From the NCBI RefSeq assembly GCF_000317555.1, contig NC_019745.1, positions 310,001-374,000 of the forward strand: 64,000 nucleotides of DNA, in the 5' to 3' direction. Numbering within the stretch: the stretch's first letter is position 1; every line of letters starts with the position of its first letter. Source of the stretch: Gloeocapsa sp. PCC 7428. GTDB taxonomy: Bacteria; Cyanobacteriota; Cyanobacteriia; Cyanobacteriales; Chroococcidiopsidaceae. The notes below the pieces were generated by a model. That model saw only the letters and a program-made list of their open reading frames with translations, was not told the DNA's origin and did no database searches. Position numbers and translations under genes: made by a program. This document shows positions 12,452-46,475 of the stretch, piece by piece.

Positions 12452-12943
12452 ATGCAAACTCAAAGCAAAGTCATGCCAGTAAACATCGGCATTAACGAAG
12501 AAGACCGCCAAGAAATTGCGCAAGGGCTTTCACGTTTACTTGCAGACAGCTACTCACTTTATCTCAAAACGCATAATTTTCATTGGAACGTCACAGGTCC
12601 AATGTTCCAAACATTGCACGTACTATTTGAAGAAGAATACACCGAGTTAGCAACTGCGGTAGATGAAATTGCTGAAAGAATTCGCGCATTAGGCTATCCA
12701 GCACCTGGAACTTATAGCGAATTTGCCGAACTAAGCTCGATTCCAGAGACGAAGGGTGTTCCCAAAGCTGAAGACATGATTCGGCTATTAGTAGAAGGTC
12801 AAGAAGCAGTCGTCCGCACCGCACGTTCGATTTTCCCTGTTGTTGAGCGCGTTAACGACGAGCCGACGGCGGATCTTTTAACGCAGCGGATGCAGGTTCA
12901 CGAAAAGAATGCTTGGATGCTTCGCAGCTTGTTAGAGCAGTAA
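12452..12943 (+). CDS. Dps-family ferritin-like protein
   Basis: 163 aa four-helix bundle. The Dps signature appears as LADSYSLYLKTHNFHWNVTG, then LFEEEYTELATAVDEIAER with the acidic ferroxidase-site residues. Dps dodecamers oxidise Fe(II) with H2O2, store iron and protect DNA. An AGGAG Shine-Dalgarno lies before the ATG. It is 23 bp downstream of sulfiredoxin. A second, diverged Dps is encoded about 0.9 kb downstream (13883-14425). Confidence 0.95.
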   Translation: MQTQSKVMPVNIGINEEDRQEIAQGLSRLLADSYSLYLKTHNFHWNVTGPMFQTLHVLFEEEYTELATAVDEIAERIRALGYPAPGTYSEFAELSSIPETKGVPKAEDMIRLLVEGQEAVVRTARSIFPVVERVNDEPTADLLTQRMQVHEKNAWMLRSLLEQ

Positions 12944-13115: not shown

Positions 13116-13796
13116 ATGAACGCACAAGACAAATCCTCAAGTAGGAATCCAGAATTAACTTCCGATCAGCTTACCGCTGCGTTACAAGCACAAATGCAGC
13201 AGGTAGGCTTATCGAGTTTCAAAGCGTTGGCTGATGCAGCGAAAGTTTCGCCGCAACAGATTCGCAAGTTACGTCGTGGCGAAGTTGGGCAAATGCGTGT
13301 GGCAACTCTGCTGAAGCTTTCGCAAGTGCTACAAGTATCATTAGATGAGTTAGTAAATACTTTTTCTGGTGCAAGTACTCAGGCAACGCTACAGCAGCCA
13401 GATACATTAAAACAAGAGTACCAAAGATTGCAGCAGTTACTTGAACAGCAGCGCGAAAACTTATGGCAGGAGTTTCAGCAGTCAAGTTTACAACAGCTTG
13501 AGTCATGGCTAGTACAATGGCCAACAGCAGCGCAAAAAGCGCAAGAAAATCCACAATTACCCGCTGTGCGGTTATTACCTTTAGTGCGACCGGTAGAACA
13601 GTTATTGCAACAATGGGGAGTCGAAGCGATCGCACCTGTCGGAGCCGAATTACCATACGATCCACGACTGCATCAACTCTTAGAAGGTACTGCACAGCCA
13701 GGCGATCGCGTTACGGTGCGCTACACAGGATACTGTCATGGTGACAAGTTACTTAAGCGCGCGCAAGTAAGTCCTGTCGCTCTGTCGAGTGCTTGA
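13116..13796 (+). CDS. HTH protein with a GrpE-like C-terminal domain
   Basis: 226 aa. Residues ~25-85 form a Cro/CI-like helix-turn-helix (SSFKALADAAKVSPQQIRKL, then LLKLSQVLQVSLDEL). A Q-rich coiled coil runs over about 95-140. The last ~60 residues match the beta-domain of the nucleotide exchange factor GrpE (GVEAIAPVG, YDPRLHQLL, PGDRVTVRYTGY, LLKRAQVSPV). GrpE's dimer coiled coil and beta-wing act on DnaK, so this may be a regulator that talks to a DnaK chaperone. The function is inference. It lies between two Dps genes, which suggests a stress role. The start is set by the HTH and lacks a strong ribosome site. Confidence 0.8.
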   Translation: MNAQDKSSSRNPELTSDQLTAALQAQMQQVGLSSFKALADAAKVSPQQIRKLRRGEVGQMRVATLLKLSQVLQVSLDELVNTFSGASTQATLQQPDTLKQEYQRLQQLLEQQRENLWQEFQQSSLQQLESWLVQWPTAAQKAQENPQLPAVRLLPLVRPVEQLLQQWGVEAIAPVGAELPYDPRLHQLLEGTAQPGDRVTVRYTGYCHGDKLLKRAQVSPVALSSA

Positions 13797-13882
13797 AACA
13801 ATCTCCCCTTTGGCTGATGTTCTTCTCTGCTGAGATTTGTTCCACTATGTATGGACGAACAAGAAGAGTAAAACAAGGAATT

Positions 13883-14425
13883 ATGCGTAAAATCAATATT
13901 GGTTTATCTGACGAACAACGCGCAGGTGTAGTTGAATTACTCAACCGCGACTTATCTGACGCGTATTTAGTTCTCATCAAAACTAAAAAGTTTCATTGGG
14001 ATGTTATCGGACCACAATTTCGCTCACTCCACGAGATTTGGGAAGAACAGTACACTGCTTTAACCGAAAATATTGATGCAATTGCTGAGCGTGTGCGTGC
14101 ATTAGGTGGTTTTCCTGTCGGTACCGCAAAAGGTTTTCTAGAAAATTCTACTATCAAAGAGCAAGAAGACAATATTCCGCTAGCAACTGAAATGGTTGCT
14201 CAGCTAGTAGACGACCACGAGCAAATTATCCGCAATCTACGCGATCACGTCGATCAGTGTTCTGAAGAATTTCATGATGAAGGTACATCTGACTTTCTTA
14301 CTGGTTTAATGGAGCAGCATGAAGAAATGGCATGGATGTTACGCTCCTTTATCGAAGGCGAATCTTTAAAAGCAGATGGTTCTAAGCCTGAGGCTGAAAT
14401 GAAAGTTCCGGCTCAAGTAAAATAA
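13883..14425 (+). CDS. Dps-family ferritin-like protein, second copy
   Basis: 180 aa from the ATG at 13883, which has AAGGAA just upstream. A longer in-frame version from 13793 would add 30 non-Dps residues and overlap the previous gene. Dps helices are clear: LSDAYLVLIKTKKFHWDVIG, then EEQYTALTENIDAIAERVRA. The C-terminus has an acidic and lysine tail beyond the usual fold (after FIEGESL). It diverges from the Dps at 12452-12943, so the two are paralogues, not a recent duplication. Two hairpins follow. Confidence 0.93.
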   Translation: MRKINIGLSDEQRAGVVELLNRDLSDAYLVLIKTKKFHWDVIGPQFRSLHEIWEEQYTALTENIDAIAERVRALGGFPVGTAKGFLENSTIKEQEDNIPLATEMVAQLVDDHEQIIRNLRDHVDQCSEEFHDEGTSDFLTGLMEQHEEMAWMLRSFIEGESLKADGSKPEAEMKVPAQVK

Positions 14426-15198: not shown

Positions 15199-15231
15199 GC
15201 GTTTAGATAACCTTATGTCAAAAGCAGGTAC

Positions 15232-15258
15232 AAAAAAACTGAGCAGTACGAGCCTCAG
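15232..15258 (-). terminator. Riboswitch expression-platform terminator
   Basis: On the minus strand CTGAG (15258-15254) pairs with CTCAG (15243-15239), followed directly by seven T residues (15238-15232). It lies between the c-di-AMP aptamer and the ATG at 15198, as expected for ligand-controlled termination. Confidence 0.7.
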
Positions 15259-15295
15259 ACACTGAATGAGATACAAGACATTGTGACAATGCTTA

Positions 15296-15503
15296 CTCTT
15301 CAGTCTCCTCTCGATGCCTACGAAGTTAGCTGACGGGCTAGGACTGAGAGATGTCCTTCTACTTTCTACCTTAATTTTCGGGCTGAATAGGATAATTAAG
15401 GCTCAAGAGATACGCCCCACAATTCGGTTCCTCCGCTCTAGCTTTCTTCTAACCGATTAAAATGACTACTTTGAAAGAAATTACTAGATTAGGCTGACTT
15501 ACT
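15296..15503 (-). promoter_or_regulatory. c-di-AMP riboswitch (ydaO-yuaA class), copy 1
   Basis: The minus strand carries the conserved blocks of the ydaO aptamer in order: GAGCGGAGGAACC, GGGGCGTATC, then CTAGCCCGTCAGCTAAC, TTCGTAGGC and GAGAGGAGA. A variable stem CCTTAATT/AATTAAGG is inserted between the second and third blocks. The class senses cyclic di-AMP and usually turns expression off when ligand is bound. A downstream terminator hairpin and the universal stress gene follow. The second copy at 46300-46475 aligns over the whole core. Confidence 0.9.
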
Positions 15504-43357: not shown

Positions 43358-44701
43358 TTATCCAAAAATCAAAAAGCGAATCGAAATAAATAATGCAGCC
43401 GCGATCAACTGCACAATCATCACTGGAATACCATAATGCAAAAAAGTATGAAATGAAATGCGTCGCCCATGCTGTTCCGCAATCCCTGCTGCAACGATAT
43501 TAGAAGAAGCCCCAACTAACGTCCCATTTCCACCAAGCGTCGCACCAAACATCATCGCATAAAATAATGGCAAAACTTCGGGCGGTAACTCACCATGAAA
43601 GCCTGGCTGTAATATTTCTGGTGTTGCTAATCCTACATTAACGACATATTCTTTAAGCAATGGCACCATTGCAACAACCAGCGGAATATTTGGGACTACA
43701 CTCGATAAAATTCCTACTAAAAATAATAGAACCAGTGAGCCCAAAGCAATGTTTCTACCCAAAATAAATGCTAAAACTCCAGATATACTACTAACGACCC
43801 CTGTTTTTTCTAAGCCTCCAATTATGACAAATATACACATGAAAAATATTAAAGTACTCCAATCTACGTCCCTTAAAATATGATTAACTGTCTCAATTTT
43901 GCTATGATGTGAAAGGAGTAAAGCTAACGCGGCTCCCAATAATGCTACTGCCGCAGGCGAAATTGGAATTGGGAGCATTTCTCCGATAGCAAAGAATAGT
44001 AGTACAAAGGCTATAAGAACAATTCCTAAAGTTAAAACGCGGGGATGATTAATCTGAGGATGCGGTAACTGCTCTAAGCTATCCAACTTTTTCCGCCAAA
44101 TTTTAGGAAATAAATAAGGTAGCATAAATACGATTGCTCCTACTGCAATAATTCCTCCTAAGCTCAAGCGTCCTAAGTAATCTATAAAGCTAATATTCAC
44201 CGCATCGCCAACAATAAATGTTGCTGGATCTCCTACCAACGTTAATAAACCCGCACTATTCGCAACAAATACCATCAAAATCAACAAAGGAACAAAATTA
44301 ACTCCTACATCCTCAGCAATTGGAGGAATCAGCGGTGCTAGTAGCATCACCGTCGTAGCATTCGGTAATACTGCACAAATAGGAGTTGTAATTGCAACGA
44401 TTCCGAGTAGAAGACGTTTACCTTGTCCTTTAGCTAAGATAACTATTTGAGTAGCGAGATAGTCAAATACTTTTGTTGGTTCAAAAGCTCTGACTAATAC
44501 CATTACTCCAAAAAATAATGCTAGTGTTGAGTAGCTTCTGGCAATATAAGTAACAGCTTCTGCCAATGTCATGATGTTGGCAAAAACTAGCAGCAATGCA
44601 CCTAAAAACGCTGCAATAGTTAGGTGCATTTTTTCTGTCATAATTAAGACAATTACACTAATAAATATTATTGAGCTAAATATTGCTTGCCAGCTTGCCA
44701 T
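43358..44701 (-). CDS. ArsB/NhaD-type ion transporter
   Basis: 447 aa polytopic protein of the ion-transporter superfamily. About 11-12 hydrophobic helices are visible with the paired family loops TPICAVLPNATTVMLLAPLI and GNGTLVGASSNIVAAGIA, which form the two re-entrant substrate sites. Members are Na+/H+ antiporters, arsenite exporters or dicarboxylate/citrate carriers; sequence alone does not decide. The neighbouring remnants carry a c-di-AMP riboswitch, so an osmotic or ion role fits but is inference. The gene stands alone upstream of polA. Confidence 0.88.
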   Translation of the reverse strand: MASWQAIFSSIIFISVIVLIMTEKMHLTIAAFLGALLLVFANIMTLAEAVTYIARSYSTLALFFGVMVLVRAFEPTKVFDYLATQIVILAKGQGKRLLLGIVAITTPICAVLPNATTVMLLAPLIPPIAEDVGVNFVPLLILMVFVANSAGLLTLVGDPATFIVGDAVNISFIDYLGRLSLGGIIAVGAIVFMLPYLFPKIWRKKLDSLEQLPHPQINHPRVLTLGIVLIAFVLLFFAIGEMLPIPISPAAVALLGAALALLLSHHSKIETVNHILRDVDWSTLIFFMCIFVIIGGLEKTGVVSSISGVLAFILGRNIALGSLVLLFLVGILSSVVPNIPLVVAMVPLLKEYVVNVGLATPEILQPGFHGELPPEVLPLFYAMMFGATLGGNGTLVGASSNIVAAGIAEQHGRRISFHTFLHYGIPVMIVQLIAAALFISIRFLIFG

Positions 44702-44898: not shown

Positions 44899-45236
44899 TT
44901 ATTCGTCTTGGGAAAAATAGCGTTCTAGGAAGTTGAGTGCATGGTTGCGAATTTAGCACCAGGTTTACGTATTTCTCTGCCATCAAGACGTACAGAGCCA
45001 TAAGTCGGTTTTTCTAATCCAGCAACGATTTTTAAAAGTGTTGATTTACCACAACCAGAGTGACCGATGACTGAAATAAATTCATCTTCATTGATTGTTA
45101 GATTAATACCGTCAAGAACAACAAATTCACCTCCATCAGATGTAGGATAAGACTTCACTAAGTTTTCAACTTCCAAAAATCCATTACGATTGAAAATTTG
45201 TTCGTAATGCTGAGTTTGATAAGAAGTGGATTTCAT
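44899..45236 (-). pseudogene. NrtC/NrtD-like ABC ATPase, internally deleted
   Basis: The open N-terminal part (45236-44925) has FLEVENLVKSYPTSDGGEFV and an intact Walker A (IGHSGCGKSTLLK), then stops at KPGAKFATMHSTS. In another frame the next bases read RNHALNFLERYFSQDE and stop at 44899, a likely native C-terminus. The Q-loop, signature, Walker B and H-loop, about 150 residues, are missing. The gene is thus disrupted by an internal deletion. It is the last member of the decayed operon on the minus strand. Confidence 0.8.
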
Positions 45237-45291
45237 CTATAAAGCCTCTAAAACTAATGTGTCACTTAGTTAACTAGGAACTTATTGCTCG

Positions 45292-45795
45292 TTAAGTTAG
45301 GAAAAAAGAGTGAGGACGATTAGCACGAATTTCAAAACTATTGAGATAACCTACCGGATCGCTAGGATCAAAAGGTTTGTTATCAATGAAAGCGGTAGCA
45401 GGTACAATTTTGAAATCATCTTTGGGACATTCAATTCCCATTTCATCTGCAATTTCTCGGTAGAGATCGGTTCTCCATGCTTTTCGAGCGAGTTCTTCAG
45501 CGTTTTTAGGAATTGATTTGATTTGTCCCCAGCGCGCTGATTGTGTCATTAACCAAATACTTTCTGATTGCCACATAAATGTTGAGTGATCGTGAGGAAT
45601 TTGAGCAAGATTAGCTGGTAAATCAAAGAAAATACTTGTATCAGCCGATCGCACTATTCTTTTTTGGTTATCAAAACTGCCGTAATTGTATTCGCCGACA
45701 ATTGCTGCGCGAGTCAAATTCAGCTTGGCACCAGTAAAAGACTTATTTGTAATAATTTCGGCAACTTCTTCTCGATTGTTGGGATTGCTGCAATA
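45292..45795 (-). pseudogene. NrtA/NrtC-like substrate-binding domain, C-terminal fragment
   Basis: The frame reads YCSNPNNREEVAEIITNK from about 45795, then AAIVGEYNYGSFDNQK and SESIWLMTQSARWGQIK. These match the C-terminal half of nitrate/bicarbonate-type binding proteins or the binding-protein-like domain fused to NrtC. The N-terminal part and the ATPase half (if NrtC) are absent. It joins the truncated permease frame out of phase at about 45800-45815, so a deletion fused the two genes. No start codon or signal peptide of its own remains. Confidence 0.75.
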
Positions 45796-46213
45796 ACGAA
45801 ATAGGCAGCCCTAGTAGCGATACAGGTTTGAAAATTTGAATCAAAGGATTGAGTGCGAGTGAGGCTTGCTTGGACATCCCTATGAGAAAACCAATCGGAA
45901 TCGCGACTAAAGCACCCAGTCCAAAACCAATCAGTACTCTTCTCAGGCTTGCAAGTAATAACCAGCCAAGCCCTAAATTTCCTGGTCCCTGTCGGTAGAA
46001 GGGGTTTATAATGTAGTCCAAATTAGCAACAAGTGCCTCAAATGGAGTAGGCATCAAATTTGTTAAGAAAGTGGCAACAAACCACCACAAGATGATGATG
46101 CCTAGAAAACCAGCCGCAGGAAGTAAGACAACATCCTGCAAGACCACTGGTCGTATTTTTTTCCAGCTACTCTGTCCTGCAACCGCTAAGACAGCAAGAT
46201 TCAGATTAAACAT
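45743..46213 (-). pseudogene. NrtB/CmpB-like ABC permease, truncated
   Basis: 156 aa. The N-terminal half of a NitT/TauT-type permease is present: GFLGIIILWWFVATFLT, MPTPFEAL, then RRVLIGFGLGALVAIPIGFL and ALNPLIQIFKPVS. The EAA loop and the last three helices are missing; after KPVS the frame runs into unrelated residues (LLGLPISLLQQSQQSRRS). It is the first gene after the c-di-AMP riboswitch. Related operons import nitrate, bicarbonate, cyanate or taurine; this copy cannot work. Confidence 0.8.
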
Positions 46214-46299: not shown

Positions 46300-46475
46300 A
46301 ATGCTCACTCTTCAGTCTCCTCTCAACGCCTACGAAGTTAGCTGACGGGCTAGGATAGAGAGTTATCCTTCTGTAATTTACAGATACGCCCCTAGGGTTT
46401 GGTTCCTCCGCTCCAGACTCATTTCAGACCAAATGCTGCAAGTGAGCTACTGAATTAGGCTGACTTACTCTTAAT
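46300..46475 (-). promoter_or_regulatory. c-di-AMP riboswitch (ydaO-yuaA class), copy 2
   Basis: On the minus strand the aptamer blocks read GAGCGGAGGAACC, GGGGCGTATC, CTAGCCCGTCAGCTAAC, TTCGTAGGC and GAGAGGAGACTGAAGAG. The core is almost base-for-base the same as copy 1 at 15296-15503, including the flanking GTAAGTCAGCCTAAT start. The downstream region also aligns with copy 1, but its terminator is eroded: TACTGCTTAATCTTATTG replaces TACTGCTCAGTTTTTTTG. It precedes the pseudogenised transporter operon. The 46214-46687 gap holds this element and no gene. Confidence 0.9.

Follow-up and report, generated by a model that had tools for sequence, protein, structure and literature searches.

A ydaO-class c-di-AMP riboswitch (Rfam RF00379) was found at 15 kb of the window, the 64,000-nucleotide stretch of Gloeocapsa sp. 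PCC 7428 (NC_019745.1, positions 310,001 to 374,000) that was analysed. It precedes a gene coding for a universal stress protein (USP), and it is proposed, with a probability of roughly 0.7, to control a TeaD-like USP belonging to a c-di-AMP-governed regulon, whose other members are an NrtBCD-like ABC transporter and an ArsB-type transporter. c-di-AMP is important in cyanobacteria, and few of its targets are known there. The proposed regulon, which would comprise an uncharacterised NrtBCD-like transporter, the ArsB-type transporter and a dedicated USP, is conserved in Nostoc and its relatives and is testable. It also offers a concrete functional context for a USP family, something that is usually missing for USPs.

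The aptamer and its boundaries

Searching the whole window with cmscan yielded a significant RF00379 match on the minus strand at 15453-15300, with a score of 54.5 bits (gathering score 38 bits) and an E-value of 6.9e-10. The conserved core blocks GCGGAGGAACC, GGGGCGUAUC, AGAAGGAC...GUCC and UAGCCCGUCAGCUAACUUCGUAGGC follow each other in this order. The initial annotation, made from the letters alone, had claimed the full ordered set of ydaO blocks on this strand, and the covariance model agrees with it. The element is a real RF00379 c-di-AMP riboswitch, well above chance.

The 5' boundary of the Rfam match was rejected. A block reading AGUC-A-GCCUAAUC (15499-15487), with which the aptamer starts, lies 41 nt upstream of where the Rfam match begins, and the bases between the two fold as a long P2 hairpin. 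Judged by this block and hairpin, the aptamer begins approximately 45 nt earlier than 15453, and the upper limit originally proposed, 15503, was better than that of Rfam. Loss of P2, suspected from the Rfam alignment, was ruled out by the same two features. A closing helix at the P2 position was present in 55/57 anchored leaders.

Comparison of leaders showed that pairing in P1 and in the pseudoknot is kept by compensatory change. All 56 leaders that were scored had 3/3 pairs in P1: GCC/GGC in 48 of them, GCU/AGC in 6 and GCU/GGC in 2. The pseudoknot, formed by the P6 loop with the 3' tail, had 5-6 of 6 pairs in every leader where it was located, and its pair sets alternate between CUCUCA/UGAGAG and CUUCCA/UGGAAG forms. 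P0 was mostly GUC/GAC or GGU/ACC. The genome contains a single diadenylate cyclase gene (DAC domain, E 4.4e-39), which provides for synthesis of c-di-AMP, the ligand that the aptamer would bind.

Table 1. Features of the window discussed in the text
Feature	Position	Strand	Remarks
USP gene P0001, 222 aa	14530..15198	-	PF00582 and USP fold of model
c-di-AMP aptamer (ydaO, RF00379), 5' end corrected	15300..15500	-	Rfam match, 5' block, P1/pseudoknot and P2
P0	15499-15496 / 15305-15302	-	
P1, GCC/GGC	15494-15492 / 15318-15316	-	
P2, long hairpin	15488-15437	-	
Pseudoknot, loop/3' tail	15351-15346 / 15312-15307	-	
Anti-aptamer hairpin, GGA 15308-15306 and ACUGA 15304-15300 with UCAGU 15265-15261 and UCU 15259-15257	15257..15308	-	
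Putative intrinsic terminator, CTGAG 15258-15254, CTCAG 15243-15239, T7 15238-15232	15232..15258	-	Present, weak
GUAC/GUAC hairpin, loop holds T run	15228..15249	-	85.6% of cells paired, 25 leaders
Second c-di-AMP riboswitch	46312..46460	-	Rfam match; true 5' end ~10 nt upstream according to 5' block
Remnants of NrtB-like permease, SBP and NrtCD-like ATPase, three truncated frames	44925..46213	-	tblastn pieces
Intact ArsB/CitMHS-type transporter	43358..44701	-	PF03600, E 6.7e-62

The target gene

The protein encoded behind the riboswitch contains a Usp domain (PF00582, 30.4 bits against a cut-off of 24, E 6.5e-7). Its AlphaFold model has a mean pLDDT of 62.6 and is good in the core only; residues 85-133 form a disordered insert. 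Structures matching the model best were those of USPs, TeaD among them (Z up to 15.9), and TeaD, tied with another USP, was the nearest solved fold by Z (15.9, rmsd 2.1, 117 residues). Profile score and fold both place the protein in PF00582, which confirms the earlier description of the target as UspA-like. ATG 15198 is the conserved USP start. A TTG start at 15276 was discarded because orthologs begin at the ATG/GTG of M-N-I-K-P.

Searching PDB sequences with the USP profile gave no match. Two motifs described for USP domains (PMC8214093) were sought in 81 members of the family. The Walker A-like ATP-binding motif G-X2-G-X9-G-(S/T), as in UspFG and TeaD, occurred in 0/81, and so did the c-di-AMP motif (A/G/C)XSXSX2N, which was derived for Firmicutes KdpD. 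Since the latter is missing from all members scanned, binding of c-di-AMP by the USP via a KdpD-type motif was rejected.

Expression platform

Bacillus ydaO riboswitches characterised so far are transcriptional OFF switches. The initial annotation had placed a terminator directly before the ATG, and by analogy with Bacillus such a terminator would imply transcription attenuation, in which bound c-di-AMP lets the CTGAG/CTCAG stem and the seven T residues terminate transcription before the USP gene. Stem and T run are indeed there (Table 1), but the stem is weak and is not conserved. Its folding energy of -5.1 kcal/mol does not stand out from that of shuffled sequences (z -0.73), and in the sister genus, where CTCAG is replaced by CTCGT, only -1.9 kcal/mol remains. 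Across 25 related leaders 49.6% of the stem cells were paired, compared with a shuffle mean of 46.9%. What characterizes an intrinsic terminator, a stable and conserved GC-rich stem followed by a U run, was thus not found. The stem was not listed in a terminator scan of the minus strand either; its loop is 10 and the loop limit of the scan is 8.

All five distinct leaders found in the genus and its sister genus retain a run of 6-8 T, which speaks for attenuation. However, most related leaders do not have a T6 run (it was detected in 5/34 USP leaders and 4/20 permease leaders), and in the window the T run forms the loop of the GUAC...GUAC(C) hairpin. Two-sided covariation was not seen in this hairpin among the 25 leaders. 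The hairpin is incompatible with pairing of ACCU (15229-15226) to AGGU (15213-15210) over the ribosome-binding site; in the window both this pairing and the ribosome-binding site itself (AAGG, 12 nt before the ATG) are weak. On balance, attenuation appears unlikely, although a terminator special to the clade of the window is conceivable.

The alternative pairing of the aptamer is conserved. In RNAalifold analysis the 3' end of the aptamer (GGA.ACUGA) formed eight pairs with UCAGU.UCY in 24/24 type A leaders. Of the remaining 30 leaders, designated type B in what is a family-level comparison, most had an equivalent helix built from different bases (mostly AAGGAACCCC with GGGGUUUCCUU) together with a second hairpin, mostly CUUCUC/GAGAAG, directly upstream of the start codon. 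The anti-aptamer helices and the P0 and pseudoknot pairings are mutually exclusive. The conserved platform looks like a combination of anti-aptamer hairpin and start-site structures. Since these are conserved and the terminator stem is not, translational control is more likely than transcription termination.

Under translational control the switch could work as follows. At low c-di-AMP concentration the aptamer's 3' strand, GGAGACUGA, would pair with the downstream UCAGUGUCU, P0 and the pseudoknot would not form, and the USP would be made. At high c-di-AMP concentration the aptamer would close, the downstream strand would be freed and the start-site region would refold, so that USP synthesis would drop along with synthesis of the transporters. 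The USP would then probably tune or partner the transporters.

Gene context in related genomes

The first recognised gene was determined behind 69 riboswitches, i.e. the three of the window genome and those of its relatives. It coded for an NrtB-like permease in 29 cases, for an ArsB-type transporter in 15 and for the USP in 12; the remainder had another or an unrecognised downstream gene. The USP gene was present in 21/60 relatives. In 12 of these 21 it had its own RF00379 match within ~200 nt, and in the other nine it adjoined genes of the ABC cluster (in two of them, G019 and G022, an SBP gene on the same contig); for seven of the nine, the retrieved sequence showed a riboswitch upstream. 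These context counts are not independent, since the genomes are related to one another.

Similar results were obtained with wider samples. A phylum-wide sample had an RF00379 match upstream in 22/26 USP loci. Among named cyanobacterial genomes, 70/80 USP loci had a c-di-AMP riboswitch core no more than 700 nt ahead of the gene, and 59/80 displayed the full order riboswitch - NrtB-like permease - SBP - NrtCD-like ATPase - riboswitch - USP; these 80 loci came from a search of genome contigs seeded by the USP only, and they are closely related, many being from Nostoc. An ArsB-type gene follows the USP gene in 28 of the 59 full-order loci, and in one locus it stands before, with its own riboswitch. 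The permease and the ATPase of the cluster pass the NrtB and NrtCD NCBIfam cut-offs, and the structures most similar to the SBP are those of NrtC/CmpC and NrtA/CmpA. Co-occurrence was modest for USP and SBP (p 0.03) and stronger for USP and ArsB (p 0.002), both p values being optimistic as the genomes are related.

The initial annotation had regarded a USP target as a departure from the transport and osmotic theme of ydaO riboswitches. This is not supported, because relatives embed the USP gene in a riboswitch-controlled ABC/ArsB-type cluster, a typical setting for this riboswitch, where it is encoded with the transporter operon; in the window the cluster has come apart, and of its ABC genes only remnants are left. 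Gene order thus argues that the USP belongs permanently to a transporter regulon under c-di-AMP control.

Six genomes (G000, G003, G004, G008, G014 and G032) have kept the USP without the SBP gene. Five of them retain the ArsB-type gene, truncated in one, and G008 has neither. Since the USP outlasts the SBP, in five of six cases together with the ArsB-type gene, it may have the ArsB-type protein as its partner, or a different one. The USP cannot act solely through SBP and ArsB-type protein, as indicated by the gene content of G008.

Two different Dps-like ferritin genes (12452-12943 and 13793-14425, plus strand) flank a helix-turn-helix gene (13116-13796) near the USP gene. The earlier reading had pointed to these peroxide-defence genes as neighbours. 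On an explanation built on this co-location, the USP would serve in oxidative or nutritional stress generally, and c-di-AMP would tie osmotic signalling to peroxide defence. However, the Dps-like genes are on the strand opposite to the USP gene, and the recurrent neighbours of the USP gene in the named relatives are ABC and ArsB-type transporter genes. The proximity of the two ferritin genes speaks for this explanation, but it is very improbable. The USP most likely serves ion or osmotic balance rather than peroxide defence.

A disrupted cluster in the window

The search of the whole window gave a second RF00379 match at 46450-46312 (minus strand, 73.8 bits, E 3.1e-15), 30 kb from the USP gene and its own riboswitch. 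Behind it, tblastn detected pieces corresponding to residues 1-142 of 280 of the permease, 298-465 of 466 of the SBP and 3-96 of 279 of the ATPase. An intact SBP gene was not found in this genome at E 1e-120; two genomes of the same genus retain one. Past these remnants, the ArsB-type gene is the first to be intact; its product is 83% identical to the riboswitch-preceded transporter of relatives. The window holds a broken-up version of the riboswitch-ABC-riboswitch-USP cluster. In the sister-genus genome G004 all that follows the same riboswitch is a permease remnant of 48 residues and the ArsB-type gene. In both genomes (46460-43358 in the window) the riboswitch seems to have survived the loss of its operon and to have been handed to the next gene.

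Relation to known systems

The riboswitch shares with RF00379 ydaO/yuaA all aptamer blocks, P1, the pseudoknot and the core, and further copies exist in the genome and in most relatives. It differs in its P2 of ~50 nt, the long P4 loop, the lack of a convincing conserved terminator and the USP target. Reviews link cyanobacterial c-di-AMP riboswitches to osmoprotectant transport (PMC5986932, PMC4284465), and a c-di-AMP riboswitch has been described for Synechocystis slr0753, a putative chloride efflux gene (PMC10117731). Here, too, a cyanobacterial c-di-AMP riboswitch stands ahead of an ion transporter gene, and the ArsB-type gene of the USP regulon may be the counterpart of slr0753; the adjoining regulon, however, also includes the NrtBCD-like ABC transporter and the USP.

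TeaD, the USP of the TRAP transporter TeaABC of Halomonas elongata, modulates this osmoregulated ectoine transporter and binds ATP (PMC9006882). It has the same fold and is likewise encoded with an osmotically relevant transporter, whereas the USP family described here lacks the Walker A-like motif, carries a long insert and is located beside ABC/ArsB-type transporters. By analogy, TeaD would be its closest functional counterpart. The USP domain of KdpD with c-di-AMP (7ji4) also shares the fold (Z 12.6) and the absence of a Walker A-like motif, but its c-di-AMP motif is not found in the family, and the USP studied here is not fused to a kinase.

In the full-text literature searched for riboswitch, c-di-AMP, cyanobacteria and USP, the primary ydaO target surveys, Nelson 2013 and Block 2010, lying outside the search, this USP was not reported as target of a c-di-AMP riboswitch. 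The riboswitch class is known; the conserved USP target family and its transporter context are added here. A more far-reaching proposal, which we put forward tentatively as possible, is that this dedicated cyanobacterial USP family is the regulatory partner of the NrtBCD-like ABC transporter and of the ArsB-type, possibly chloride, transporter. With tandem riboswitches in one cluster (riboswitch-ABC-riboswitch-USP), c-di-AMP would then dose the transporter independently of its regulator; some genomes have a third riboswitch, ahead of the ArsB-type gene. Because of the tandem riboswitches, heterocystous cyanobacteria that are genetically tractable offer a direct test of this partnership.

Other c-di-AMP riboswitches

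The genome has three RF00379 matches in total, the third outside the window. The lowest score is that of the 15-kb aptamer (54.5 vs 73.8 and 77.8 bits), but the idea that it is a decaying copy without ligand binding, with low score and long loops reflecting relaxed constraint, has hardly any probability. Most of the shortfall in score can be put down to the mis-registered 5' end and to the length of the P2 and P4 loops. Moreover, the core blocks are intact, as are P1, P0 and the pseudoknot, and six genomes from two genera have retained the element.

The third riboswitch (L001 ~1778-1978; G000:C1 near 3569072) is followed by a conserved ORF of 66 aa (MNYYKQWILLAKQELNGIVVDYTDPEGNHYSEPFCFQTLDEAISYGQACIDRLIRLRSKSLMQAES), whose ATG has an ACCUC/GAGGU hairpin in front of it; this arrangement is conserved in six genomes. 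A DUF937-like gene was rejected as its target; it lies further downstream, and the small ORF in between was favoured. In G008 (C282) a small 2Fe-2S ferredoxin-like protein (CRVGACSCCAGQ) is encoded behind a riboswitch at 24305-24182. In G003 (L007) a riboswitch at 1501-1636 stands before a group 1 glycosyltransferase gene (PF00534, 1780-3042), and a gene 70% identical to it is likewise located behind a c-di-AMP riboswitch in G056.
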